This document shows, piece after piece, positions 6,201-63,300 of a stretch of 64,000 bases of DNA. The translations under genes and the position numbers were made by a program. The stretch covers positions 18,581,898-18,645,897 of the forward strand of contig CM065713.1 in NCBI GenBank assembly GCA_017654935.2, given 5' to 3'. The notes under the pieces are model-generated. The model did no database searches. It saw nothing but the letters and a program-made list of their open reading frames with translations, and was not told the origin of the DNA. The DNA is from Phymorhynchus buccinoides. Taxonomy: Eukaryota; Mollusca; Gastropoda; Neogastropoda; Raphitomidae. Numbering within the stretch: the stretch's first letter is position 1; each line of letters begins with the position of its first letter.

Positions 6201-9200
6201 AGTTTCGATTATTTGAGAAGGGAGCCAACTCTCATTTATGACAGCAGTAATGGCGGTCGGTAAGCGTTTACAGGACGTGTACGGGCTTCAAACTTCGACT
6301 TTCTTTTGCGAGGTGTGTATCGCCTTATAAACGAGGGCGCCTTTTACTTTAATTTTTTCTGATTTTTCTTGAAAATTGCCCTATTCGTCTTATACACAGC
6401 AGCGCCTAATGATCCGAAAAACATTGTAACCTTTTGGTATCTTCTAGTCACAGAGACGAGTCTCTATGGAATTCAGGCTGCTCCCACCTGGAGAGTGTGT
6501 CAGCTTGACGCGCAGCTTCTACGCTGGCCGCATGCATCAATTTTCACGAGTCATATAACGAATAGAACCTGTTCTATTTTCGAGCGTCAAGCTGCGTGAA
6601 CTGACCAATCGAAACGCAAGGAACCAAAAAACAAGGGACACCACTCCACGTTATGCGACCTACCAGACAATCATGGCGGACGACGGCGACACTGCTATCT
6701 TGATTGAGCCGTATCAAAGCCAGGAACACCTTTACAACACTGAGTTAAAGGCCTACCATGACCGAGATAAGACTCCTGAAAGTCTTCTTTCTTTCCATTC
6801 TTGCTGTTTACAAACAGAAGTGACATTACAGTTAACTTTTATTGGTTCCCTAAATGGAGATGACGCCTAGTATGCGACTGGCAATGCGTGCGTCGTACGT
6901 CAAGCATGCTTGCATCACTGACGCGCGTCATGATGTTGACGCCCAGTGTGCGACTGGCAACGCGTGCGTCGTACGCCAAACATGCTTGCATCACTGACGC
7001 GCGTCATGATGTTGACGCCCAGTGTGCGACTGGCAACGCGTGCGTCGTACACCAAACATGCAGCATCACTGACGCGCGTCATGATGTTGACACTGGTGTG
7101 CCAAGGGCCTGACACTGAAGTAACACGTCTGTTATTTCTTCCTTACCGATCTGCTTGGGGTAAGGTAGGTCGAGTTTCTTCATGATTTCAATAAACTCGC
7201 TGCGTGAGCGTGTCAGCCGGCGGTTGAACTTCAGTTCTTCATCCACGGTGCTGCTCGTCTGACCTGAAAACACCAAACGGTTACCGGTACCGTATTTCAC
7301 AAAGTAATGTACCGTATTTCACAAAGTAATGTACCCTATTTTTCGGACTACAAGGCGATCCTTTTTCCCCCCGACTTGACCCCTGTGCCTTGTAATGTGA
7401 CTAGCAAGACAGCAAGAAAATATAATACAGTGGAACGTCCCTTGTAATCTGACTAGCAAGACAGTAAGAATTGTAATGTGACTAGCAAGACAGTAAGAAA
7501 ATATAATACAGTGGAACGTCCCTTGTAATCTGACTAGCAAGACAGTAAGAATTGTAATGTGACTAGCAAGACAGTAAGAAAATATAATACAGTGGAATGT
7601 CCCTTGTAATGTGACTAGCAAGACAGTAAGAAAATATAATACAGTGGAACGTCCCTTGTAATGTGACTAGCAAGAAAATATAATACAGTGGAATGTCCCT
7701 TGTAATGTGACTAGCAAAACAGCAAGAAAATATAATACAGTGGAATGTCCCTTGTAATGTGACTAGCAAAACAGCAAGAAAATATAATACAGTGGAACGT
7801 CCCTTGTAGTGTGACTAGCAAGACAGCAAGAAAATATAATACAGTGGAATATCCCTTGTAATGTGACTAGCAAAACAGTAAGAAAATATAATACAGTGGA
7901 ATGTCCCTTGTAATGTGACTAGCAAAACAGCAAGAAAATATAATACAGTGGAACGTCCCTTGTAATGTGATTAGCAAGACAGCAAGAAAATATAATACAG
8001 TGGAACGTCCCTTGTAAGACCTTCAACAATCAGAGAGAGAAAATACTGTTTTACGTCCTCACGGCCTGGGACCTTCAACAATCATCCCAAAAGAGGTCTT
8101 ATAAGGGAGGGGTCTTATAAGGGAGGTAATTTTAATACTTACAAAGAAGGGCAATGTCTCAGAGAAGTAGGTCTTAAATGGGAGGGAGTCTTATAATGGG
8201 AGGTCTTATAAGGGAGGTTCCACTGTAACAAAATTGTAATTTTGTGTCAAATTCGGGGGGGGGTGTTTTATGATAAGGCGCGCCGTGTCTGTACAAAGCG
8301 GTGCAAGGCGCACCTCCCACAGTTGGGGTGTGTGCTCCCTGTGCAGTTCCGCCTTCAGTATAAGCTGGCTGTTCTATCCTTCCGTCACTTTGAACAGACC
8401 CTTCCGCCTTACCTCTCCAGAGCTCTTCACACCTACACTCCTTCCCGCTCACTCAGGTCCTCAAACACAAAACTTCTGAAAGTTCCAAAAACAAATCTAA
8501 AATCATTTGGTGACCGCAGTTTCAGTTTCAGTGCCCCTGCTGTTTGGAATTCCCTCCCAGTCGATCTCCGCCATGAACCAACTATCTCTACTTTCAAAGC
8601 TAAACTCAAGACACACTACTTTCAAAGCTCATTCGGTTTGTAAATGTTTCCTTCTTGATCTTGTACCTGGGTGAATGAATGGGTGATAATGTTTTGTGCG
8701 ACTGCGGGTGTATCAGTGAATGGAAGCGCCTTGAGTGTAAAATAATTATAGAAAGGCGCTATAGAAATACTATCAATTATTATTATTATTATTATGATAA
8801 GGCGCGCCGTGTCTGTACAAAGCGGTGCAAGGCGCACCTCCCACATTTGGGGTGTGTGTTTTATGATAAGGCGCGCCGTGTCTGTACAAAGCGGTGCAAG
8901 GCGCACCTCCCACATTTGGGGTGTGTTTTATGATAAGGCGCGCCGTGTCTGTACAAAGCGGTGCAAGGCGCACCTCCCACATTTGGGGTGTGTGTTTTAT
9001 GATAAGGCGCGCCGTGTCTGTACAAAGCGGTGCAAGGCGCACCTCCCACATTTGGGGTGTGTTTTATGATAAGGCGCGCCGTGTCTGTACAAAGCGGTGC
9101 AAGGCGCACCTCCCACATTTGGGGTGTGTTTTATGATAAGGTGCGCCGTGTCTGTACAAAGCGGTGCAAGGTGCACCTCCCACATTTGGGGTGTGTGTTT

Positions 9201-12200: not shown

Positions 12201-15200
12201 GTGCGCCGTGTCTGTACAAAGCGGTGCAAGGTGCACCTCCCACATTTGGCACAAATTTCTGATTTTATTACACCTGCATCTTACTATATTATTTGTCAGA
12301 TTATAGAATGCAGGGGTCTCAGTCAAGAAAGAAAAAGTATCGCCTAGTTATAGTCTGTAAAAACGAGTAACTGCCGAAAATCTTTTTCTTTTAAGAAAAA
12401 ACAAAAATTACAAAATGTAAAATAGAACTTGGAACAAGGTTATTTTGAAAGCCTTCAGTAATTTGTTTTTTTAATTGTTTTTATAAAATAGACCTGCTCA
12501 GAGTCAATGTGGCAAAACGTTCTGGAGATGTAAACCTCCTGACTGCAACACAAAACGATTAACCCCTTGACTGCCAGAGAAATTGCGAGACAAAAACATG
12601 TGTTTTTTAAATTACAAAATGACACATAGAAAGAATGAGAGAGAGAATACAATAGATAAAATAACAAACAGGAGAGAGAGCGAAAGAAAGAATGTCGGAG
12701 AGAAGGACAAGAACACAGATATAGAGAAAGAGAGAGAAGGACACAGAGAGAGCCATGCATAGAGACAGAGAGAGAGAGAGAACTGTGACCTGTGTAGTCG
12801 TGTGCAGGGAACACTTTGAAATGTCGAGGAAGAGAGAAAATCTTGGCGTGCACCGAGTCATACAGCTTGCCTGCATCCCCTGTTGACAAACAAACCCAAT
12901 GATTGATACGAGAGAGACAGACATCCCCTGTTGACAAACACAATGATTGATACAAGAGAGACAGACAGAGACAGAGGACTCGGAACACAGTCTAACAGAT
13001 ATTTACAGGGCTCACCTTTTTGTTTGACTATAGAGTATTTTCACCCCCAGGGTGAACTTATAGAGGGTGAAAAAACAACAACAAATAAACATAAAGGCAT
13101 TCAAATATTCAGTATTGTCAATAAAACATTGTATTGTATGCACAGGCAATATGAAGCAAACGTGCGTCTTTCACCCTCCCCTCTGTGTGTGTGCGTGTGC
13201 GCGCGCATGCATGCGTGTGTGTGTATTTTTGGAAAGCTAGTTAAATTGTCAGTCTTCTCTCTCTCTCTCTGTGAGTGCGCGCATGTGTGTGTTTGGAAAG
13301 CTATTGTCAGTGCCATCCCTCTGGTGCTCTGTCTCTCTCTCTCTGTGAGTGCGCGCATGTGTGTGTTTGGAAAGCTATTGTCAGTGCCATCCCTCTGGTG
13401 CTCTGTCTCTCTCTCTCTGTGAGTGCGCGCATGTGTGTGTTTGGAAAGCTATTGTCAGTGCCATCCCTCTGGTGCTCTGTCTCTCTCTCTCTCTGTGAGT
13501 GCGCGCATGTGTGTGTGTGGAAAGCTATTGTCAGTGCCATCCCTCTGTTTGGTGCTCTGTCTCTCTCTCTCTGTGAGTGCGCGCATGTGTGTGTTTGGAA
13601 AGCTATTGTCAGTGCCATCCCTGTTTGGTGCTCTGTCTCTCTCTCTCTGTGAGTGCGCGCATGTGTGTGTGTGGAAAGCTATTGTCAGTGCCATCCCTCT
13701 GTTTGGTGCTCTGTCTCTCTCTCTCTGTGAGTGCGCGCATGTGTGTGTGTGGAAAGCTATTGTCAGTGCCATCCCTCTTTGGTGCTCTGTCTCTCTCTCT
13801 CTGTAAATAATTTTGTTCTTTGTGTGTGTGTTGCATCTAGAGATTGTTTTTTCCTCTTTCACGATAAATGTTGCCAGTGTGTGTGTGTGTGTGTGCTGTG
13901 TGCGTGCGTGCATGTGTATGTGTATGTGAGTGTGTGTGTGGAAAGCTGTTGTGTGCCATGGCTGTGTGTATGTGTGTGGATAATTGGTATTTACAAATAT
14001 TTGCCATTCATATATTGATCTGGTGCTTTTTTTCTTCTAATATTTTTTCTTTGTTGTTGGTGAGATGTAAACAAGCCTGTATTGTGCTTATTCTTTTGCA
14101 ACATTAAAAAAGATTTGTTCGTTCGTTCGTTCTCTCTCTCTCTCTCTCTCTCCCTCCCTCCCTCCGTCTCTCTCACTAGTCTCGGGCCCCTCTCATAGAC
14201 ATAAACACCACACACGTTTTAGCTAAGAAAACAAAATTCCATTGCTTGAAGCACTCTTCAATGACCTTGGTAGAAGGTGAAGGACAGGACATGGTGTATG
14301 TGATTATTCCAGACTGGTTACACATTCAATGCCCTACTAGGACAATGTGTCTTCCATGGGGATTGTCTCCCACCCCCTCCCATATCAGCATCATTACCCA
14401 GTCCTCTTTCTGTACCACTCTCCGTCCTGCCTTTATTTCTGCAGTCCTTACCCAGTCCTCTTTCTGTACCACTCTCCGTCCTGCCTTTATTTCTGCAGTC
14501 CTTGCCCAGTCCTCTTTCTGTACCACTCTCCGTCCTGCCTTTATTTCTGCAGTCCTTACCCAGTCCTCTTTCTGTACCACTCTCCGTCCTGCCTTTATTT
14601 CTGCAGTCCTTACCCAGTCCTCTTTCTGTACCACTCTCCGTCCTGCCTTTATTTCTGCAGTCCTTACCCAGTCCTCTTTCTGTACCACTCTCCGTCCTGC
14701 CTTTATTTCTGCAGTCCTTACCCAGTCCTCTTTCTTTACCACTCTCCGTCCTGCCTTTATTTCTGCAGTCCTTGCCCAGTCCTCTTTCTGTACCACTCTC
14801 CGTCCTGCCTTTATTTCTGCAGTCCTTACCCAGTCCTCTTTCTGTACCACTCTCCGTCCTGCCTTTATTTCTGCAGTCCTTACCCAGTCCTCTTTCTGTA
14901 CCACTCTCCGTCCTGCCTTTATTTCTGCAGTCCTTACCCAGTCCTCTTTCTGTACCACTCTCCGTCCTGCCTTTATTTCTGCAGTCCTTGCCCAGTCCTC
15001 TTTCTGTACCACTCTCCGTCCTGCCTTTATTTCTGCAGTCCTTGCCCAGTCCTCTTTCTGTACCACTCTCCGTCCTGCCTTTATTTCTGCAGTCCTTACC
15101 CAGTCCTCTTTCTGTACCACTCTCCGTCCTGCCTTTATTTCTGCAGTCCTTACCCAGTCCTCTTTCTGTACCACTCTCCGTCCTGCCTTTATTTCTGCAG

Positions 15201-18200
15201 TCCTTACCCAGTCCTCTTTCTGTACCACTCTCCGTCCTGCCTTTATTTCTGCAGTCCTTACCCAGTCCTCTTTCTGTACCACTCTCCGTCCTGCCTTTAT
15301 TTCTGCAGTCCTTGCCCAGTCCTCTTTCTGTACCACTCTCCGTCCTGCCTTTATTTCTGCAGTCCTTACCCAGTCCTCTTTCTGTACCACTCTCCGTCCT
15401 GCCTTTATTTCTGCAGTCCTTACCCAGTCCTCTTTCTGTACCACTCTCCGTCCTGCCTTTATTTCTGCAGTCCTTACCCAGTCCTCTTTCTGTACCACTC
15501 TCCGTCCTGCCTTTATTTCTGCAGTCCTTGCCCAGTCCTCTTTCTGTACCACTCTCCGTCCTGCCTTTATTTCTGCAGTCCTTGCCCAGTCCTCTTTCTG
15601 TACCACTCTCCGTCCTGCCTTTATTTCTGCAGTCCTTACCCAGTCCTCTTTCTGTACCACTCTCCGTCCTGCCTTTATTTCTGCAGTCCTTACCCAGTCC
15701 TCTTTCTGTACCACTCTCCGTCCTGCCTTTATTTCTGCAGTCCTTACCCAGTCCTCTTTCTGTACCACTCTCCGTCCTGCCTTTATTTCTGCAGTCCTTA
15801 CCCAGTCCTCTTTCTTTACCACTCTCCGTCCTGCCTTTATTTCTGCAGTCCTTACCCAGTCCTCTTTCTGTACCACTCTCCGTCCTGCCTTTATTTCTGC
15901 AGTCCTTACCCAGTCCTCTTTCTGTACCACTCTCCGTCCTGCCTTTATTTCTGCAGTCCTTACCCAGTCCTCTTTCTGTACCACTCTCCGTCCTGCCTTT
16001 ATTTCTGCAGTCCTTGCCCAGTCCTCTTTCTGTACCACTCTCCGTCCTGCCTTTATTTCTGCAGTCCTTACCCAGTCCTCTTTCTGTACCACTCTCCGTC
16101 CTGCCTTTATTTCTGCAGTCCTTACCCAGTCCTCTTTCTGTACCACTCTCCGTCCTGCCTTTATTTCTGCAGTCCTTACCCAGTCCTCTTTCTGTACCAC
16201 TCTCCGTCCTGCCTTTATTTCTGCAGTCCTTACCCAGTCCTCTTTCTTTACCACTCTCCGTCCTGCCTTTATTTCTGCAGTCCTTACCCAGTCCTCTTTC
16301 TTTACCACTCTCCGTCCTGCCTTTATTTCTGCAGTCCTTACCCAGTCCTCTTTCTTTACCACTCTCCGTCCTGCCTTTATTTCTGCAGTCCTTACCCAGT
16401 CCTCTTTCTTTACCACTCTCCGTCCGGCCTTTATTTCTGCAGTCCTTACCCAGTCCTCTTTCTTTACCACTCTCCGTCCTGCCTTTATTTCTGCAGTCCT
16501 TACCCAGTCCTCTTTCTTTACCACTCTCCGTCCGGCCTTTATTTCTGCAGTCCTTACCCAGTCCTCTTTCTTTACCACTCTCCGTCCTGCCTTTATTTCT
16601 GCAGTCCTTACCCAGTCCTCTTTCTGTACCACTCTCCGTCCTGCCTTTATTTCTGCAGTCCTTGCCCAGTCCTCTTTCTGTACCACTCTCCGTCCTGCCT
16701 TTATTTCTGCAGTCCTATTTCAGATGTCCGTTTTGATCTGCTTGTCTCATGCCCCCCCCCCCCCCCCTCAATCTCTCATGTCTATCCTAACTCTCTCTCT
16801 CTCTCCTTCCCCCTCCCTGGCATGCCTAATTGGTCTCATGGGGCAAGTTTACTCACAAAGCTATGGGTGAGTTGAGAGCAACTTGTAATGGGAGATCAGC
16901 GCAGGCACTGGGTGGAATCATAGTGCGCGGCGCTGCCCTCCAGTGGCCATTTTAATACTTCGTTTCACCCCCAGTACACAACTTGTAATGCGTCTGTCAC
17001 ACATTTGACGCACAGAATGGGAGCCCTGATTAACTCATGATTAACTCATGAAAAGTGGTAGATCGCATGTCTATGACAGCTCTGCGACTGCTCTTGTGTT
17101 GGTAGGGCAGGTGCATCTCTGGGTCCCATCAGCGCCTTCAGATTTTTTTTTTCTTCATTGGAAACAGAATGTTCATACAGATCTTTGAGAGTTTTACCTA
17201 CAACAAAAACTAAACAAGTGAAGACAGGATTTTTCGAGAGAAAGGGAGAGACAGAAAGTGAGGGGGGAGGGAGATAGACACAGAGGGAGAGAATGAGTCC
17301 ATATGAACGGATGGACAGGCAAATTAGATTATAAATAGAACATTAATGCAAGTATATCACATTTATCAATATGTAACGGAATAACAACAGGACTTAAAAC
17401 ACAATGGCTTGAGAGAGTAACAAACATAAGTTTCTTGCTGGAGATGACAATTATTCCCAGTGTTTGAGCAACACCACTAACTGACAATAACAACAAAAAC
17501 AGAACCTCGACCCTTGTCAGAGATTTAATGAGTAAAAGTTATAAAAAAAGGTACCAAACACAAAACTTCTCTTAGCACAAAAATGGCAGCTGTGTGAAAG
17601 CATTGTATGGCGTATCATCAATATCTGTCATCATAAGGGATGTGCATTGTATGGCGCATCATCAATATCTGTCATCATAAGGGATGTGCCTTGTATGGCG
17701 CATCATCAATATCTGTCATCATAAGGGATGTGCATTGTATGGCGTATCATCAATATCTGTCATCATAGGGGATGTGCATTGTATGGTGTATCATCAATAT
17801 CTGTCATCATAGGGGATGTGCATTGTATGGTGTATCATCAATATCTGTCATCATAGGGGATGTGCATTGTATGGTGTATCATCAATATCTGTCATCATAG
17901 GGGATGTGCATTGTATGGTGTATCATCAATATCTGTCATCATAGGGGATGTGCATTGTATGGCGTATCATCACTATCTGTCATCATAAGGGATGTGCATT
18001 GTATGGCGTATCATCAATATCTGTCATCATAAGGGATGTGCCTTGTATGGCGTATCATCAATATCTGTCATCATAAGGGATGTGCATTGTATGGCGTATC
18101 ATCAATATCTGTCATCATAAGGGATGTGCATTGTATGGCGTATCATCAATATCTGTCATCATAGGGGATGTGCATTGTATGGTGTATCATCAATATCTGT

Positions 18201-26347: not shown

Positions 26348-29300
26348 TTTAGTGTGTCTGTCCTTGTTTTTAATGAGAACATCAAAGTGATTGACTGATT
26401 GTTTGATTGACTGACTGATTGGTTGATTGACTGACTGATTGGTTGATTGCCTGAATTGAGATTGATTGATTGACTGACTGGTTGATTAATTGACTGGTTG
26501 ATTGGTTGAGAGATTGGTTGACTGACTGACTGAATTGAGATTGATTGACTGATTGCATTACCTTGCTGGAAGTCTGTTCGCCCACAGCCCCTGATGAGAA
26601 CAGCGTCACCGGTGAACACCATATAGTGCGGCCGTAACACGTACGTCATGCACCCTGCGACACAACACAACAAACACCATACAGTGCTGTAACACATACA
26701 TCATACACCATAACACAACACAACAAACACCATACAGTGCTGTAACACGCACATCATACACCATAACACAACACAACAAACACCATACAGTGCTGTAACA
26801 CGTACATCATACACCATAACACAACACAACAAACACCATACAGTGCTGTAACACGTACATCATACACCATAACACAACACAACAAACACCATACAGTGCT
26901 GTAACACGTACATCATACACCATAACACAACACAACAAACACCATACAGTGCTGTAACACGTACATCATACACCATAACACAACACAACAAACACCATAC
27001 AGTGCTGTAACACGTACATCATACACCATAACACAACACAACAAACACCATACAGTGCTGTAACACGTACGTCACACACCCTGCTACACAATACAGTGAA
27101 CACCACCTGCCACACAATACAGTGAACACCACCTGCCACACAATACAGTGAACACCACCTGCCACACAATATAGTGAACACACCCTGCCACACAATACAG
27201 TGAACACAACCTGCCACACAATACAGTGAACACCACCTGCCACACAATACAGTGAACACACCCTGCCACACAATACAGTGAACACCACCTGCCACACAAT
27301 ACAGTGAACACACCCTGCCACACAATATAGTGAACACCACCTGCCACACAATACAGTGAACACCACCTGCCACACAATACAGTGAACACCACCTGCCACA
27401 CAATACAGTGAACACACCCTGCCACACAATACAGTGAACACACCCTGCCACACAATACAGTGAACACCACCTGCCACACAATACAGTGAACACACCCTGC
27501 CACACAATACAGTGAACACAACCTGCCACACAATACAGTGAACACCACCTGCCACACAATACAGTGAACACAACCTGCCACACAATACAGTGAACACAAC
27601 CTGCCACACAATACAGTGAACACAACCTGCCACACAATACAGTGAACACCACCTGCCACACAATACAGTGAACACAACCTGCCACACAATACAGTGAACA
27701 CAACCTGCCACACAATACAGTGAACACCACCTGCCACACAATACAGTGAACACAACCTGCCACACAATACAGTGAACACCACCTGCCACACAATACAGTG
27801 AACACCACCTGCCACACAATACAGTGAACACAACCTGCCACACAATACAGTGAACACAACCTGCCACACAATACAGTGAACACAACCTGCCACACAATAC
27901 AGTGAACACAACCTGCCACACAATACAGTGAACACAACCTGCCACACAATACAGTGAACACAACCTGCCACACAATACAGTGAACACAACCTGCCACACA
28001 ATACAGTGAACACCACCTGCCACACAATACAGTGAACACAACCTGCCACACAATACAGTGAACACAACCTGCCACACAATACAGTGAACACCACCTGCCA
28101 CACAATACAGTGAACACAACCTGCCACACAATACAGTGAACACACCCTGCCACACAATACAGTGAACACCACCTGCCACACAATACAGTGAACACAACCT
28201 GCCACACAATACAGTGAACACCACCTGCCACACAATACAGTGAACACAACCTGCCACACAATACAGTGAACACCACCTGCCACACAATACAGTGAACACA
28301 ACCTGCCACACAATACAGTGAACACAACCTGCCACACAATACAGTGAACACCACCTGCCACACAATACAGTGAACACAACCTGCCACACAATACAGTGAA
28401 CACCACCTGCCACACAATACAGTGAACACACCCTGCCACACAATACAGTGAACACCACCTGCCACACAATACAGTGAACACCACCTGCCACACAATACAG
28501 TGAACACACCCTGCCACACAATACAGTGAACACAACCTGCCACACAATACAGTGAACACAACCTGCCACACAATACAGTGAACACAACCTGCCACACAAT
28601 ACAGTGAACACCACCTGCCACACAATACAGTGAACACACCCTGCCACACAATACAGTGAACACCACCTGCCACACAATACAGTGAACACCACCTGCCACA
28701 CAATACAGTGAACACAACCTGCCACACAATACAGTGAACACAACCTGCCACACAATACAGTGAACACAACCTGCCACACAATACAGTGAACACAACCTGC
28801 CACACAATACAGTGAACACAACCTGCCACACAATACAGTGAACACAACCTGCCACACAATACAGTGAACACAACCTGCCACACAATACAGTGAACACAAC
28901 CTGCCACACAATACAGTGAACACAACCTGCCACACAATACAGTGAACACAACCTGCCACACAATACAGTGAACACAACCTGCCACACAATACAGTGAACA
29001 CACCCTGCCACACAATACAGTGAACACAACCTGCCACACAATACAGTGAACACAACCTGCCACACAATACAGTGAACACCACCTGCCACACAATACAGTG
29101 AACACAACCTGCCACACAATACAGTGAACACAACCTGCCACACAATACAGTGAACACAACCTGCCACACAATACAGTGAACACCACCTGCCACACAATAC
29201 AGTGAACACCACCTGCCACACAATACAGTGAACACAACCTGCCACACAATACAGTGAACACCACCTGCCACACAATACAGTGAACACCACCTGCCACACA

Positions 29301-32300
29301 ATACAGTGAACACACCCTGCCACACAATACAGTGAACACCACCTGCCACACAATACAGTGAACACAACCTGCCACACAATACAGTGAACACCACCTGCCA
29401 CACAATACAGTGAACACCACCTGCCACACAATACAGTGAACACAACCTGCCACACAATACAGTGAACACACCCTGCCACACAATACAGTGAACACAACCT
29501 GCCACACAATACAGTGAACACAACCTGCCACACAATACAGTGAACACCACCTGCCACACAATACAGTGAACACAACCTGCCACACAATACAGTGAACACA
29601 ACCTGCCACACAATACAGTGAACACAACCTGCCACACAATACAGTGAACACAACCTGCCACACAATACAGTGAACACAACCTGCCACACAATACAGTGAA
29701 CACAACCTGCCACACAATACAGTGAACACCACCTGCCACACAATACAGTGAACACAACCTGCCACACAATACAGTGAACACAACCTGCCACACAATACAG
29801 TGAACACAACCTGCCACACAATACAGTGAACACCACCTGCCACACAATACAGTGAACACCACCTGCCACACAATACAGTGAACACCACCTGCCACACAAT
29901 ACAGTGAACACAACCTGCCACACAATACAGTGAACACACCCTGCCACACAATACAGTGAACACCACCTGCCACACAATACAGTGAACACAACCTGCCACA
30001 CAATACAGTGAACACCACCTGCCACACAATACAGTGAACACAACCTGCCACACAATACAGTGAACACAACCTGCCACACAATACAGTGAACACAACCTGC
30101 CACACAATACAGTGAACACAACCTGCCACACAATACAGTGAACACAACCTGCCACACAATACAGTGAACACAACCTGCCACACAATACAGTGAACACCAC
30201 CTGCCACACAATACAGTGAACACAACCTGCCACACAATACAGTGAACACACCCTGCCACACAATACAGTGAACACAACCTGCCACACAATACAGTGAACA
30301 CCACCTGCCACACAATACAGTGAACACCATACTGTGCTGTAACACGTACATCATACACCCTGCCACACAATACAGTGAACACACCCTGCCACACAATACA
30401 GTGAACACAACCTGCCACACAATACAGTGAACACAACCTGCCACACAATACAGTGAACACAACCTGCCACACAATACAGTGAACACAACCTGCCACACAA
30501 TACAGTGAACACCACCTGCCACACAATACAGTGAACACCACCTGCCACACAATACAGTGAACACACCCTGCCACACAATACAGTGAACACAACCTGCCAC
30601 ACAATACAGTGAACACAACCTGCCACACAATACAGTGAACACAACCTGCCACACAATACAGTGAACACAACCTGCCACACAATACAGTGAACACCATACT
30701 GTGCCACACAATACAGTGAACACAACCTGCCACACAATACAGTGAACACAACCTGCCACACAATACAGTGAACACCACCTGCCACACAATACAGTGAACA
30801 CAACCTGCCACACAATACAGTGAACACAACCTGCCACACAATACAGTGAACACAACCTGCCACACAATACAGTGAACACAACCTGCCACACAATACAGTG
30901 AACACCACCTGCCACACAATACAGTGAACACCACCTGCCACACAATACAGTGAACACACCCTGCCACACAATACAGTGAACACCACCTGCCACACAATAC
31001 AGTGAACACAACCTGCCACACAATACAGTGAACACAACCTGCCACACAATACAGTGAACACAACCTGCCACACAATACAGTGAACACAACCTGCCACACA
31101 ATACAGTGAACACCACCTGCCACACAATACAGTGAACACAACCTGCCACACAATACAGTGAACACAACCTGCCACACAATACAGTGAACACAACCTGCCA
31201 CACAATACAGTGAACACAACCTGCCACACAATACAGTGAACACAACCTGCCACACAATACAGTGAACACAACCTGCCACACAATACAGTGAACACAACCT
31301 GCCACACAATACAGTGAACACAACCTGCCACACAATACAGTGAACACAACCTGCCACACAATACAGTGAACACCATACTGTGCCACACAATACAGTGAAC
31401 ACAACCTGCCACACAATACAGTGAACACCACCTGCCACACAATACAGTGAACACACCCTGCCACACAATACAGTGAACACAACCTGCCACACAATACAGT
31501 GAACACAACCTGCCACACAATACAGTGAACACAACCTGCCACACAATACAGTGAACACAACCTGCCACACAATACAGTGAACACAACCTGCCACACAATA
31601 CAGTGAACACAACCTGCCACACAATACAGTGAACACAACCTGCCACACAATACAGTGAACACACCCTGCCACACAATACAGTGAACACCACCTGCCACAC
31701 AATACAGTGAACACACCCTGCCACACAATACAGTGAACACCACCTGCCACACAATACAGTGAACACCACCTGCCACACAATACAGTGAACACCACCTGCC
31801 ACACAATACAGTGAACACCACCTGCCACACAATATAGCTTTTGGCATCATTTTGTTTTGGTAGGCTTGGTGTAACCAGAAAAAGTAAGAAAGAACACATT
31901 TCCATTTTAGTAAGCCTAGCCTATCATGTGCTCTTTCGCTCACAGTCGGTACTACTACCTGGGCTGAAACACAGAACTTCCATTGTCTTTTGATAACACT
32001 TTTGGTGTCGTCTGCTCTAAAGAGACTTGATATAATATTATAATGTGAAAAATGTGTGCATTAAAGAGTCCCTTTGGGATATTAGTGCTTCAGCGACGCA
32101 CAAATGTGTGTTATGGGAAACACTGTTTCACACACACACACACACACAAACAAGAACATACAGTATTTTTATACGGCGCTCAATCTTGATATAAATCAAA
32201 TCAAAGCGCACACACACATTAGCATTCATAACGCATTCAAACAAAACCGCAATACAAAGCGAACACACACGGATGACATAAATGGAATACAGCAGAAACA

Positions 32301-32598
32301 GACCTAATGGCAAGAGAGAGAGAAAGAGAGCGGAGCTTTAATGACGGGGGACACACACACAGAGGCACACGCGCACACACACGCAGGCACACACACGCAC
32401 GCACGCACACGCACACACACACACACGCACGCACACACACGCACGCACACACACGCACGCACACACGTAAGCACGCACACACACACACAGGTCAGTGATC
32501 ACTAACATTACACTGTCACTCACCGTTGGTGTGGCCCGGGGTGCTGTAGCACTCCAGATGGAATTGTCCGAAGGGAATGGTACTGCCCTCATTAACAT

Positions 32599-32646
<48 letters not shown>

Positions 32647-32752
32647 CAGTGATCACTAACATTACACTGTCACTCACCGTTGGTGTGGCCCGGGGTGCTG
32701 TAGCACTCCAGATGGAATTGTCCGAAGGGAATGGTACTGCCCTCATTAACAT

Positions 32753-32808
<56 letters not shown>

Positions 32809-34661
32809 CAGTGATCACTAACATTACACTGTCACTCACCGTTGGTGTGGCCCGGGGTGCTGTAGCACTCCAGATGGAATTGTCCGAAGGGAATGGTACT
32901 GCCCTCATTAACAAGCATGTCAGCGGTGGCGCCACTCACGGCCGCGATCACACTGCGGCAGTTGGGAAGATGCTTTTTTATCTTCCCTGATCCCGTCACA
33001 TGATCGGCGTGTACGTGTGTGTTCACTGGCCAAAACAACAACAAAGGCAATGTTGTTCAGAAAGGAGACGCACTTTCAAACAGTTCGCTCAAAACAATGC
33101 AGTTTTTTGCAAAACAGCCACACAAAAATGTGAATAGAAAACTAAATGAAAGCATTGTTAATAATAATATTTATACAAGCCAATGTCACAGTCAGCACAG
33201 ACAGACACACAGACTCATACAGGCAGGGAACCGAAAGATCATGATTATACAGAGCCCACTCGCCTTGCATGGGTGCTCCTGGAAAATGTCAACAATCCTG
33301 CAAGGGGGCGGCCCCGGTGGAGTGCAGGAGCAGCGCACACACACATTTACTGCTCTTTTTTTCACCCCTCTAGACCAGCACAAGAGCTACATTCCTTTAA
33401 ATATAGCAAATGCTTACATAGGCCCTTTTTATTGTACAAGTGTGTGTGTGTGTGTATGTGTGTGTGTGTGAAGCTCTTTCTCTCTTTCCCTCCTCTTTCT
33501 TGCCTTTAGGACCATTTCTCAAATGTGTGTGTGTGTTATCTTCTTGTTCGTCTTTGTTTAAATGCATTATGAATGTTTAACGTGTGTGTGCACTTCGATT
33601 TGATTTCTATCAAGATTTAGCGCCGGCTCTAGGCAATTTACAAATCCTTCAATTCAGGACATCCTGCAAGGAGGAGCATCCATGGCCTTGGCATGAGGCT
33701 GTGTCAGACCAAGGCTGTGTCAGACCAAGGCTGTGTCAGACCAAGGCTGTGTCAGACCAAGGCTGTGTCAGACCAAGGCTGTGTCAGACCAATTGACACA
33801 AGCCAGAACACCAAGGCCACATCAAAATGCTTGTTATGTTCTGCATAGTTATGCGGGGATTGTCTTTAGCCATAACAAGCTCCTAGCATAACATCGTCAG
33901 TCCAAAATCATCCGAAGTCGGAATGTGGCTGCCTACGTGGTGGGGCAATAAAAAAAACGGTCACACACGTAATGTTCTCATCCCTAGCTGGTGCATTTGT
34001 AGTTCCATATAATATTAGTGTTCAAGTGCTTCGGCTGTTGGGATGATCCCTGGAGTCTTTTAGCCAGGGAACGACAACAACATACAGACCCACTTTGTTG
34101 GCACCAGTGAGCCAAACATTCCATGTGTCACTAAATGGCAGATATAAGTGATTATAATCATTGTTTTATGATAAATCAACCTGGGACATGACGTAGCCCC
34201 TTAGCCCTATGTGTGACTGTATTGGGGGGGGTATGACACCAAATTGGCTGGAAATCATAAGGAAGCTTAATAATGTCTTCCCATACTAATCTGACATTTG
34301 ATAAAAAATCCATTCAGTAGTTTTTGACAAAATTGTAACACACACACACATGCACACACACACACATGTATGCACGCACGCACACACACACACACACAAA
34401 ATCGATTATCAATTCAGATGATCAATTCTCAGAATTCTGTGACAACAAATTATGATTATATTTTTCTGCCACAACCATAGATACGGCCTGATCAAAAGTG
34501 AGCAATTCACTCGAAAATTTGCCACAAATGATATGACGGGCGTTTGTGTTTTGTTTAGTCTGGTGCAACATCATTATAAACTATCCAACACTTTAGTCAG
34601 CAAAGGGGAAGTTTGTCACGGTCTGTTCGGTTCTCGGTTAATTTGCTTTTTTCTTTGCATG

Positions 34662-35343: not shown

Positions 35344-36320
35344 ACAAACACTAATCAATCATAATATGTCCGAAACAAGTGAGTTTTAAGGGCAGAGCGA
35401 AAGGCGGAGATAGAGTCAGATGAGCGGACATGTTGTGGGAAGGAATTCCATAAGTGAGGTGCTAAATAGTAGAAGGATCGTTCACCAAAAGATTTCGTGT
35501 GGACCCGAGGAACCTTGAGTGTGCAGCAGTCAGAGGAAGAACGTAGGGAGCGAGCAGGTGTGTAGACAGTTACTAGTTCGGAGAGATAGACAGGACCAGA
35601 GGAGTGAACAGCACCGAAACAAAGGCAAGCTATTTTATACTTGATTCTAGCCTCTACTGGAAGCCAGTGCAAGTTACGAAGATGAGGTGTTATATGATCA
35701 GAACGTGGAATCTTGAGAGTGAGGCGTGCTGCACTGTTTTGCAGTTTTTGAACACATTGCAGGAGATACTGAGGACAGCCACAGAGAAGAGAGTTGCAAT
35801 AGTCAATGCGGGAAAGAATAAAGGCAGAAATAAGAGTTTTCGTGGCTGCAAATGTTGTGTGTGGGTGTAACACCTAGAGTAGAAGACAGCAGTGCATGAA
35901 TTATGCATCAGGGGTGTCGCCGAGCGACATTCCCTCCATTTTTCTGCACCTGCATACAATTACTTCAAATTATGTGTGTACGTGTGTGTCGGGGGGGGTG
36001 GGGGATAATATAAAAACTAGAAGACATCAATGCATAAATTATGCCATGGGGACGTGTCCGGGTGGCAGATATACATTCCATTTTTTTTTCTGCACCCTCT
36101 ATACTAGTGTGAACCACAGCAAGAAATCAATTCACTTTTTTCTTGGGCCTTTTGGCTAAATCACTAATCTTCCTGACTCTGTTCACCTTCGGGACATTCA
36201 TGATGAGGGCAAGGTTATGTACAGCTGAAAGACTGATACCACCCATCTCTCTTCCTCCCCCATCCCCCACCCCTTCTTTTCACACCTATGCAACATACTC
36301 TCCCTCTTCGTACTCTCCTC

Positions 36321-43623: not shown

Positions 43624-45910
43624 CGTGTGTGTGTGTGTGTGTGTGTATGTGTCTATAATGGGCTATTCTGTGTGTATACTGCAATCACACAACTTAGCAC
43701 AAAGTTACACTTGGAAGGGAAACTGTTTGCTTTAAGATAAGCTACCTGGGACAGTGTTAAATTTGTCTGTGATTTGCCCCTGGGCATGCTTGGGGCTTTT
43801 CCAGTACAAACAGTTCCCCTGCCTTCTGGAAATCATTCTCTTGGACTCTGCCTCTCATTTGCCTACTGTCATTCTCCTGCCTTTTTTCTTCTAGAAAATC
43901 TTTTAAACTGTTTTTGTTTTTCCTTTGAGCTGTTTTGAAATGAGAGTGTTGGCTGAAGGCAGTGAGGACAGCAGGTAGCTGACAACTGGACGCACGTGTG
44001 TCTTACTCTTACCCAGCATGGCCCTGGCTGGGAGCACACATTCTGATTTTTATTGGGATTGCTTCAGTACTTTAGGCTTCAGACACTCTAACAAAAAAAC
44101 AACAACATGGGTTCGCACAGAAACACACACACACACACACACACACACATGGAGAAACTCACATACGTCCCATCCCCTCATTGCTCGATCTATCCGCTGC
44201 GTTCGACACGATAGACCACGATATTCTTCTGAACAAATTGCATGCTACGTTTGGGTGTGATAGTATTGTTATGGACTGGTTCAGGTCATACTTGTGTGGT
44301 CGCACTCAGTCTGTCTATATCAAACAGCAAAAATCCAGCCCCTCAGTATTAAAGTATGGAGTGCCACAGGGATCAGTCTTGGGCCCAGTCTTGTTCACTA
44401 TGTACACACAGCAGGTTAGCCTAGTTATTAGACAGACATTATCTCATTACCATTTCTTTGCCGACGATTCGCAAATGCATGATTCTGCCTCTCCTTCTAA
44501 TATTCCTCGCCTAACCTCTGACATTACATCTTGTATGGAGAATGTAGCATCATGGATGAAACATAACAAGCTAAAAATGAATGACGATAAAACCGAACTG
44601 ATTTTGATTGGAACCAAACACAAACTTGAACAAACTCCTGTTAGTTCTGTTGTTGTGTCCGGTTGTGAAATTCCATTTTCATCTTCGGTTTGCAATCTGG
44701 TTGCATATCTTGATCCTTCTCTTACCATGGACACTCACGTTAATCAGTTATGTAAGGCTCTCCACTTTCAGCTTTGCAAATTAAGTAAAATCCGCCCTTT
44801 CCTGTCTGTTGACGCTGCTAACAAACTCGCTGTTGCTTCCATCCTCTCTCGCCTTGATTACTGCAATTCTCTGCTCGTAGGTCTTTCTAATGACAAACTG
44901 TGTAAGCTTCAAAAAATACAAAATCATGCTGCAAGACTTGTCTTGCGAAAGTCGAAACATGATCATGCAACCCCTCTTCTGGCTGCCTGTTAAGGCCAGA
45001 ATTGAGTACAAACTAGCCACTCTCTGCTTTCAATGCCTCAACTCTGAATGTGTGCCCTCGTATCTTTCTGACCTCCTTCAGCCTTACATGCCTTCTAGAG
45101 CACTGAGATCACAAGACTCTTCTCTGCTTACTGTCCCTAGATACTCTTTGAATTCCTGTGGTAAAAAATCTTTCTCTGTGTCTGGACCTACAACTTGGAA
45201 CTCTCTACCTCTTTCTATCAGAAAAAAACACCTCCCTCCAAACCTTCAAATCTCAGCTGAAAACCCACCTCTTCCATAAATACCTCAACTGATCCCCCAG
45301 AGTGAGGAAAATGATGGTTTGGATATGCATGTATGTGTGCTTGCATGCGTACATGTGTGTGTGTGTGTGTGTGTGCAGGGCGCGCATGTATGTTTGTATT
45401 GGGAGTATATGTGTATGCCCGCATCTGTTGGTGTGGGCGTGTAATTTAGCGTTCTTATGTTGTTTTTAGTCGGCTCGTCTTAATCTGTTGTTATCTTAGG
45501 AATGTTGTCTATTGTGGGTATGTGCATCATTTTACATGTATATTGCTTATGTATGATCCTATTAAAAATGCTTTATATAGTTATTATGTTTTAACACGCA
45601 ATATTCAACTATCTCCGAATGTGTAGTCTATTGTAAGTTTGTAAATCATATTATCTTACGTTTTCATGTGTGCTATTACGAAGTGTATGTCATATGCCTA
45701 TCATGTTTTAGTAAGTAAGTTTTAATCTGTTGTTATCGTATGAATGTGTTGTCGGTTGTGGTATGTGGACCATGTTATCTTGTATTGTCTTATCAAGTGT
45801 ATACTATTCGTTATTTTCTTATTTTAGTCTGATGTTTTATTTATATTTCAATTTGTAAAGCGCATAGAGCATACTGATAGTGTGGATTGATAGCGCTATA
45901 TCAAATAAAA

Positions 45911-57617: not shown

Positions 57618-57995
57618 TGTTGTTGTTCAGCTGATTTCAATTATGCTAAATGATGATCAAAGCCACTAGCCATAGGCCTATAACTGCAGTGCCCAAACAG
57701 CGACTTGAGTGTTGTCTGCAAACGAGCGATGATAGGCACAACGCGCATGTCCAACGACCCCGAAGCAATAAAAATTATATCCTTCTTTGCCCGAAGCACG
57801 AACGCGTGTACGAACGCACGAAGCACGTGGAGGTTAGGTGTACGTGTGTCATTTGCATAGTTTGAGCAAGTAAAGGACGTCCTTGTAGGTTTGGTTTGTG
57901 TTATTGCCACAGGCGCACGAAGTGTAAATACAATATTGAAAATAACAATGAGCACAATCATGACTATTTTTCTGTTCAGTTGACAGTCACACACG
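57618..57995 (-). promoter_or_regulatory. ETHE1: ETHE1 5' UTR and presumed promoter region
   Basis: Immediately upstream of the start codon. Seen: an E-box CACGTG at 57824-57829, an octamer ATTTGCAT at 57851-57858 and an AT-rich TATA-like stretch near 57770-57783. The region is unique and moderately CpG-rich compared with neighbours. Assignment as promoter is by position only; a 117-codon open frame here resembles nothing I know. Confidence 0.35.
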
Positions 57996-60376: not shown

Positions 60377-63300
60377 GATAATAACAAAGATAATGATAAT
60401 AACAACCAGCAGGACAATTCTCATAGAATAATACAAAACCAGTCCGATAGCCACAACACCCCCAATATTAGCAACGCTGATGGAAATAATGACAAACCTG
60501 ACAATAATAACAGTGATGCTGAAGAAAACGATCCCACTTTCCATAACGAGGAAAGAGAAGAAGATGACCCCAGTGAGAGTGAAAGGTCAGCTAGATGCCT
60601 GAAGTGTGTTGCACTTTAATGTGTGCGGTTTTCTATCTAAACAGGCTTTTCCTGAATTTTCAGAGTTATTGAATAACTATGACGTTATCTGCATCTCTGA
60701 AAGCAAACTTGCAGATGTTGACACAGTACAAATAGATGGTTACACGGCATTTTATAAAAACAGAAATAGATACAGAAGAAAATCTGGAGGCATCCTAGTA
60801 CTAATAAGAGATTGTTTTGTTCAGCATATTACTGTTTTTGAGGAAACACGATTCAAGAATAACGTTAGTAATGAAGCAAGAAGTAGTCATAAGTTTGTGG
60901 ATTTTGAGATGTGTCGTAGTGCGTTGTTCTTTGCTTTTCATGACTCTGTTTGGGGAAAGAAAGTCGTGTTTTGTGCTGTCTACATTGAGCCAGAAGGTTC
61001 GCCATATTTTAACCGTAATATTTATAATGATTTACAGGAAACTATTTTGCAAATCGGAATTGGCAGTGTTTGTCTTCTTGGAGACTTTAATTCTAGAACT
61101 GGTCAGCTGAATGAATTGTTTGTCAATAATTTATTTCTTGATGGTGTTTTTAACAACGATAACAACTATCCCGAAAGAACATCTGAAGATAGGCAGACAA
61201 ATAGCATGGGGCATGAATTATTAGGTTTCTGTAGAGCATGTCAGCTTATTATTGTTAATGGCTGAATTGGTAGAGATTGTGGTAAAGGTAAGCTGACTTG
61301 TAGTAAGAATGCTTCTGTTGTGGATTACGGTGTAGTTTCTTATGATTTATATGAACGTGTTGAGGACTTTTGCGTGCATGAATTTAATGAATTGTTTTCA
61401 AATATCCATTGTCCAATTAGTATAAATTTTGTGGCAGAATCCATAGATAAGAAAGAGAAAGCAGTCCATGAGCCAAGTACCAATGATCCTAATTCGTATT
61501 TTGTGAAATGGAATAATGATCTAAAACTAAATTTTGTTGACGATTTAGACGTTGAAAAAATAACATTGGTAGAGCACGAGCTCGATGGCCTGCTTTCAAA
61601 CTAAGAGAATATTACTTTAAACAGTGTAGATGAGATTGTCGGTAGAGTTAACAATATTCTAATTGAAAGTGCAAGTACACTACACATGGTAAAAAAAGAG
61701 AAAGAAATATCGTGGCCCATCTAAAAAGATAAAAAAAGGATAAATCATGGTATAATGTGGAATGCAGGATTAAGAGTAGAATTTTTTCGCGATGTAGGAG
61801 AAGAAGTTTACTAATGAAAAATGATTTGTTTTTGAGGGCAGAAAAAGAACGTGCTGCCAAGTCATATAAAAAGACAGTTAAAAAAACAGGCGAGAAAACA
61901 TAACCATGAAATGGCAAGACGATTACGTGAAACAAAGTAAAGACCCCAAGGATTATTGGGCCATAATAAATGGGAAAAAGAATAAATCTAACCCTAGCCA
62001 ACCTAGCTGTCAGGCCTTTTTTGAGCTGTTTAAAAATATGAATACAGTTGAAGAGGAGGCTGATGATGCCCCTGACAATGGAGTTGATTCTGATAATGTT
62101 AATGCTCTGTTAGATAATTTAATTACTGAAAATGAGGTTCTAAATTGCATAAAGAAGTTAAAGAGCAATAAAGAATGCGGGTTAGATAATATAGTAAATG
62201 AATTCCTTAAAACTTCAGCAGAGAAAATGTTAGGTGTTTTTGTGAAACTATTTAATCTGATATTAATTACCGGTAAAGTGCCAACTGATTGGGTAATTGG
62301 GGTTATACAGCCAATATTCAAAAACAAAGGTTCCCCTGCAGATCCCAACAACTATCGTGGTATAACCATACTGTCCTGTTTTGGGAAACTGTTTACAAGT
62401 ATCCTGAACGAACGCCTAAAGGTATACATTGAAACATTTCACTTAATTGGCATGGAACAAGCTGGGTTTAGAAACACTGGATCACTTGTTTACTTTGTAC
62501 GGGCTGATTAATATTTTGTTGTTTAAGAAAAAGCGCTTGTATTGTGCATTTCTGGATTATGAAAAAGCTTTCGATAAAGTTAATAGGGCATTTTTGTGGC
62601 AAAAACTTATAGACAATGGTATCAGCGGTCGGTTATTAAAAGTAATACAAAATATGTATTCCCAAGCTAAATCATGTGTTGCGGTTAATAGTGAATTTTC
62701 TGACTTTTTCTTCTCGGAAGTTGGAGTGAGGCAAGGAGAAAACCTGTCGCCTGTATTGTTTGCCATGTTCCTGAATGACATGAAAGTTTTTATGTCTAGA
62801 AATATGACTGGTCTTACCATAGTTGCTAGAGAAGCAGATATATTAGGTATGAACGAACATGAAATTAACATTTTGTTAATACTATTTTTATTGTTGTATG
62901 CAGACGACACTGTCATATTTTCTGAAACTCCAATAGGATTGCAAAGAGGCTTAGATAATATTCAACGCTATTGTCAAAAATGGAATTTGAAATTAAATGC
63001 CAAGAAATGTAATGTTCTTATTTTTTCTAAGGGTAAGGTTAGACGTTTTCCCGACTTTCTTATAGTGACTGAAAAATTAGAGGTTGTTCAGAACTTTATG
63101 TACTTAGGGTTAAAGTTAAATTATAATAACAAAATGAATGTCGCACAACGTGATCTTTATGACCGAGCTTCCCGAGCCATGTTTGCTTTGTTGAGGAAAG
63201 CTAAATTATTGATACTTCCTGCAGATCTAACTATTGACCTATTTGATAAAACTGTACTTCCTATCCTTACATATGGTTGTGAAATTTGGGGCTTTGATAT

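Follow-up and report, generated by a model that had tools for sequence, protein, structure and literature searches.

How does an intron come to consist mostly of copies of the exon edges that flank it, in a gene whose true splice sites and coding frame are preserved? The question is raised by a stretch of 64,000 nucleotides from the neogastropod Phymorhynchus buccinoides (assembly GCA_017654935.2, contig CM065713.1, positions 18,581,898 to 18,645,897), referred to here as the window and used for all coordinates. Its minus strand carries the gene for ETHE1, a persulfide dioxygenase, and all exons and exon-edge copies given below lie on that strand. The gene product has a match to Pfam PF00753 (Lactamase_B), its best solved chain is 4chl, persulfide dioxygenase ETHE1, and for the 172 residues searched the closest proteins come from the caenogastropod snails Littorina saxatilis (74% identity) and Batillaria attramentaria (76%). 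Exons 2-7 were located by tblastn with mollusc homologues and then joined; the joined frame is open, as an earlier reading of the bare sequence (the original prediction) had claimed. Intron 3 (32839-26655, 6185 bp) separates exon 3 (33025-32840, 186 nt, with the true donor ACCAACG|gtgagt) from exon 4 (26654-26562, 93 nt, identified by mollusc ETHE1 homology and an open frame, with the true acceptor gtcgcag|GGTGCATGA). About 88% of this intron consists of copies of its own flanking exon edges, from both sides, which falls within the 85-90% of the original prediction. The explanation favoured here, with a probability of roughly 0.83, is that minisatellites of the type called 'mirages' in amphioxus span exon-intron boundaries of this repeat-rich gene, that their extra copies are intronic and tolerated, and that the exon-proximal splice site is the one used.

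Two exon edges copied into intron 3

Most of the copied material comes from the acceptor edge of exon 4, whose arrays extend over 26655-31834 (5180 bp, 84% of the intron). The first of them, a 53-bp tandem array at 26634-27080 defined by Tandem Repeats Finder (TRF), takes in the true acceptor together with about 21 nt of the start of exon 4 and thus physically crosses the boundary at 26654/26655. Compared with 80 bp of exon 4 edge, its seven inner copies are 85-86% identical (BLAST, E 1e-21 to 5e-20). In all seven the acceptor AG is gone, with TATGG replacing CGCAGG, and the array holds eight sites reading GTGTTACAG. A junction copy at 27105-27044, which keeps the AG, lies between this array and the next; aligned with the exon 4 edge over 65 columns, it shows 82% identity (E 6e-13). 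Beyond it, a 26-bp array (27074-31834) contributes about 180 acceptor copies; neighbouring copies are exactly 26 bp apart in 176 cases and 55 bp apart in three. How many acceptor-like sites does this leave before exon 4? There are 181 GTGTNGCAG sites, of which one is the true acceptor and 180 are decoys, and 31860-26655 contains 195 AG and 157 AGGT, in keeping with the predicted figure of close to 190. What follows the CAG in the 181 sites is GTTGTG (101 cases), GTGGTG (56), GGTGTG (22), GGTGTA (one) or the true acceptor (one). With a spanning copy defined as one that reaches 6 nt or more to both sides of the boundary at E<1e-3, all nine spanning matches to the exon 4 acceptor edge, at 79-86% identity, lie within its own array.

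The other end of the intron has been copied as well. Two extra donors had been noticed after exon 3, and they belong to exact copies of its donor edge: the first (32751-32600) is identical over 152 nt, comprising 74 nt of exon end plus the start of the intron, with its donor at 32678, and the second (32597-32476) is identical over 122 nt, with its donor at 32524. The extra donors thus sit 162 and 316 nt past the true one, and the two copies together make up 274 bp, or about 4% of the intron. By BLAST in the window (E<1e-3), the exon 3 donor edge has no match besides these two.

Where does the 26-bp unit come from? The original prediction derived it from the exon 4 edge, and on its own the unit gives marginal support: when three variants were each tested against 2000 shuffles of themselves, the observed score was reached by 0.0225, 0.1585 and 0.034 of the shuffles. 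The derivation holds up better by position, as the exon 4 edge fits the unit better than any of 2927 other positions in the window. It also holds up through a 55-bp copy of the edge embedded inside the 26-bp array (30382-30323), which aligns at 79% over 63 columns (E 3e-10) and whose score of 96 compares with at most 38 among shuffles. The array is thus traced to the exon 4 edge, because both the embedded 55-bp copy and the junction copy align to it. Removal of exactly 29 bp from the 55-bp copy yields the variants CAG|GGTGTG and CAG|GTGGTG, and in the case of the former the break shows a 2-nt GT match. CAG|GTTGTG, the commonest of the three, differs from either by one base. It seems reasonable to assume that a loss of 29 bp turned an edge copy of about 55 bp into the 26-bp unit, which would then have spread to about 180 near-identical copies; that the longer form came first is an order we infer from these alignments.

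Other boundaries of the gene and the repeat setting

Is intron 3 the only place where this has happened? The original prediction described the build for intron 3, where it stands, but the description has to be widened, since the donor edge of exon 2 and the acceptor edge of exon 5 are duplicated too. At exon 2 (46467-46323), an array at 46350-45943 includes the true donor and ten downstream copies of ...CTCAAATTTGCAG|GTAAC. These copies, of the last 28 or so nucleotides of the exon plus the donor, run from 46290 to 45951; seven of the ten keep the GT, and seven boundary-spanning BLAST matches are found at 82-89%. At exon 5 (12879-12790, 90 nt), one extra copy of the acceptor edge (12967-12874, 89%) extends 6 nt into the exon. 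Were its acceptor used, exon 5 would start at 12927 and gain 48 nt, that is 16 residues, in frame and free of stops. At all four duplicated edges (exons 2, 3, 4 and 5), the true boundary itself lies inside a TRF array. A repeat unit therefore lies across the exon-intron boundary at four of the 12 boundaries tested. The units (26, 53-55, 41/76 by TRF, 44 and 154-162 bp) are of minisatellite size, and the AG or GT is kept in many copies and lost in others (7/10 kept at exon 2; at exon 4, 180 decoys kept and 7/7 inner copies lost). The copies also differ in divergence, being exact at exon 3, 82-89% identical at exon 2, 79-86% at exon 4 and 89% at exon 5.

Within the window, no boundary-spanning copy was found by BLAST for the acceptors of exons 2, 3, 6 and 7 or the donors of exons 4, 5 and 6 (E<1e-3), nor for the exon 1 donor (E up to 1), and the exon 6 edges and the exon 7 acceptor edge have no match elsewhere in it at E<1e-3. 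The exon 4 and exon 5 donors have 3 and 49 non-spanning matches, respectively, and among the matches listed all lie wholly in the intron half. Could four boundaries have been struck by chance? When 37 tandem seeds were placed at random in the collapsed gene, a mean of 0.69 boundaries was struck, and at least four were struck in 0.66% of 20000 trials; an alternative count with 11 boundaries and 29 arrays gives 0.59 expected and P 0.003. Both tests are post hoc, with the two edges that first drew attention counted in, and the two newly found edges alone would not be significant, because at least two chance hits have P 0.16.

Arrays with a period of at least 10 occupy 27.9 of the 54.3 kb of the gene, about half, and TRF tandem repeats make up 47% of the window. 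Long arrays that do not cross an exon edge are present in intron 5 (67-bp units) and intron 4 (54-bp and 44-bp units), and a TGAT-rich 20-bp array at 26388-26555 begins about 7 nt past the exon 4 donor, near that boundary and not across it. Also within intron 4, an open stretch on the minus strand (17050-17203) lies behind an acceptor-like AG and has no Pfam match. Frames at 61882-62508, 35358-35873, 8212-8640 and 44881-45276 resemble, by eye, reverse transcriptase or other transposon remnants. The gene model is completed by a probable exon 1 (57378-57626, donor end at 57378), whose long N-terminal stretch may be a mitochondrial leader, by exon 6 (7263-7147, 117 nt) and by the coding part of exon 7 (3253-3190, end approximate); exons 2, 5, 6 and 7, like the others of the joined frame, rest on the tblastn matches. 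Exons 3-6 (186, 93, 90 and 117 nt) all have lengths divisible by 3, a symmetry correctly noted in the original prediction, which named pseudo-exons, recursive splicing or exon skipping as possible outcomes. Intron 3 lies about 37 nt downstream of what we take to be the human exon 3/4 junction, and because of this offset its position may be lineage-specific.

Splice-site choice and the alternatives

In a gene so rich in arrays, slippage or unequal exchange could occasionally start a repeat across a boundary. Extra copies would then accumulate on the intron side and the repeat could be tolerated and expand, because the exon-proximal copy would still give the splice site and the coding sequence. 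Exon definition most likely holds splicing to the exon-proximal sites, and mis-splicing in intron 3 would give nonsense products. In support of the latter, reading from any of the other 235 AGs of intron 3 as acceptor meets a stop before exon 4 ends (235/235), and with either extra exon 3 donor the third added codon is a stop. The sequence relations are matters of observation, as are the 55-bp copy inside the array, the four boundaries affected and these stop codons; from them we infer the mutational mechanism, the tolerance of the copies and correct splicing.

Several points weigh against this account. Correct splicing is assumed in it, and the predicted strength of the sites offers no help: predicted U1 pairing is identical (-8.9) for the exon 3 donor and both of its copies, and at exon 2, where the GT-bearing copies range from -5.6 to -8.3 and the true donor has -8.0, five of the seven copies match or beat it (-8.0 to -8.3). 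Within the 26-bp array, CAGGUGGUG (-7.4) outscores the true donors of exon 4 (-6.6), exon 5 (-5.6) and exon 1 (-5.1), and CAGGUUGUG (-5.8) outscores those of exons 5 and 1. On the acceptor side, TTCAC, which resembles the branchpoint-like motif yUnAy, stands 17 nt upstream of 179 of the 180 decoys, and no such motif occurs within 40 nt of the true exon 4 acceptor. This motif and the comparison with the exon 1 donor speak against the decoys being weak. The 17-nt tract contains 10 T at the true acceptor and 8 at 179 of the 180 decoys, a gap too small to discriminate. Predicted site strength, then, does not account for the choice of the true sites. The statement that errors are nonsense is also limited to the tested sites of intron 3, because the extension from the exon 5 decoy is open and in frame. 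Finally, the excess of struck boundaries (P 0.0066, post hoc) is not what plain neutral seeding predicts.

Could splice boundaries be favoured birthplaces of minisatellites in this lineage, with introns growing by the repeated copying of their own exon edges and the array serving as stepping stones (recursive or dual-site splicing at the 157 AG|GT sites) or as new exon ends, such as the 16-residue extension of exon 5? This broader proposal is unlikely. Also unlikely is a functional role for the arrays themselves, in which AG|GT units would act as tandem dual-specific or recursive sites and allow stepwise removal of the intron or rare isoforms, much as human UBC makes use of tandem AGGT arrays (PMC10809524). 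The 157 AGGT in tandem and the TTCAC placed 17 nt ahead of nearly every decoy AG are consistent with such use, as is the predicted U1 pairing, in which both GT-bearing variants beat two true donors and CAGGUGGUG beats three. However, -5.8 is the 5% level among 1500 GU sites sampled from the gene, so that the commonest variant, CAGGUUGUG (101/181), is equalled by many other GU sites, and every extended exon 4 product is nonsense. The order of the units is likewise free of repeated blocks beyond chance, as in a young neutral array.

That order also bears on the assembly. Have copies been collapsed or inflated, or has a chimeric array been produced? Five kb of 26-bp units is error-prone sequence, in which the number of copies may be wrong, and the 176 units comprise five distinct sequences; in all but two of the units, variation is confined to the second and third positions past the AG. 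But the order of variants is not blocky: no block duplication beyond chance is seen in the 26-bp array, the longest non-overlapping repeated run being 11 units, where shuffled orders average 10.1 and 31% of them reach 11. The commonest variant is scarcer in the last 30 units near exon 4 (9/30) than elsewhere (17-20/30). The edge copies of exons 2, 3 and 5, moreover, sit in short arrays, and an artefact is quite improbable.

More improbable still is that intron 3 arose when a coding segment with AGGT was duplicated in tandem, the Rogers type of intron gain. Splice-edge tandem duplication has indeed been proposed as a path to new introns (PMC3087553), but this path requires homologous donor and acceptor edges. 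In intron 3 the two edges share no such homology: for the exon 3 donor edge the only matches at E<1e-3 are its own two copies, and the exon 4 acceptor edge has 9/9 of its spanning matches within its own array. Finally, the idea of the 26-bp array as a GT-rich minisatellite of unrelated origin, merely adjoining exon 4, is scarcely credible, for although the unit alone rises barely above its own shuffles (0.0225 to 0.1585), the positional fit (0/2927) and the embedded 55-bp and junction copies tie the array to the exon 4 edge.

Mirages and other known systems

Boundary-spanning minisatellites, favoured here as the explanation, would carry mirages over from lancelets to a mollusc, where they would be larger and affect several edges of a single conserved gene. 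The locus would also be a natural test of how the spliceosome chooses its sites, with duplicate exact donors past exon 3 and nearly 190 acceptor-like sites before exon 4. Copies of differing divergence may represent stages in the lengthening of introns and, possibly, in the rise of new exon ends.

Has such an intron been seen before? The original prediction knew of no described intron with this build, but the amphioxus mirages precede it (PMC3087553, PMC3902484). In the first report they are tandem repeats across exon-intron boundaries, at either edge, in Adh3 and the globin genes BflGb6 and BflGb9, with units of 10-160 bp; reverse transcription PCR and the Adh3 data suggest undisturbed splicing, and instability in length is noted (PMC3087553). 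PGBD5 and, by citation, troponin C are further cases in the second (PMC3902484). A search of the open-licence literature found no mollusc mirage, which does not show that none has been published. As in amphioxus, the snail gene has a unit of minisatellite type lying over the boundary, at a donor or an acceptor edge, with AG or GT kept in many though not all copies and the gene intact. Unlike the amphioxus cases, it belongs to a snail and involves four boundaries of one gene and both ends of one intron. The scale differs too: the BflGb6 mirage has 6 and 3 units in two haplotypes (PMC3087553), whereas snail ETHE1 has nearly 190 copies and has, in addition, formed a secondary 26-bp unit.

Other systems share parts of the picture. 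Variable tandem repeats at a human exon-intron boundary may give new introns, according to PMC2812944. In human UBC, AGGT sites in tandem act as both donor and acceptor (PMC10809524), and the regular spacing of such sites is shared with snail ETHE1; in UBC, however, the sites delimit coding monomers and their use has been shown, whereas the snail array is intronic, has a 26-bp unit and offers predicted sites. The snail case resembles intron gain of the Rogers type in that tandem duplication touches splice signals, and it differs in that the edges of intron 3 are not homologous and the duplications enlarge an existing intron. Potato RdRp (RNA-dependent RNA polymerase) is reportedly a case of intron gain by tandem genomic duplication. 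Snail ETHE1 thus belongs with the mirages, apparently in a new phylum, on a larger scale and at four edges.

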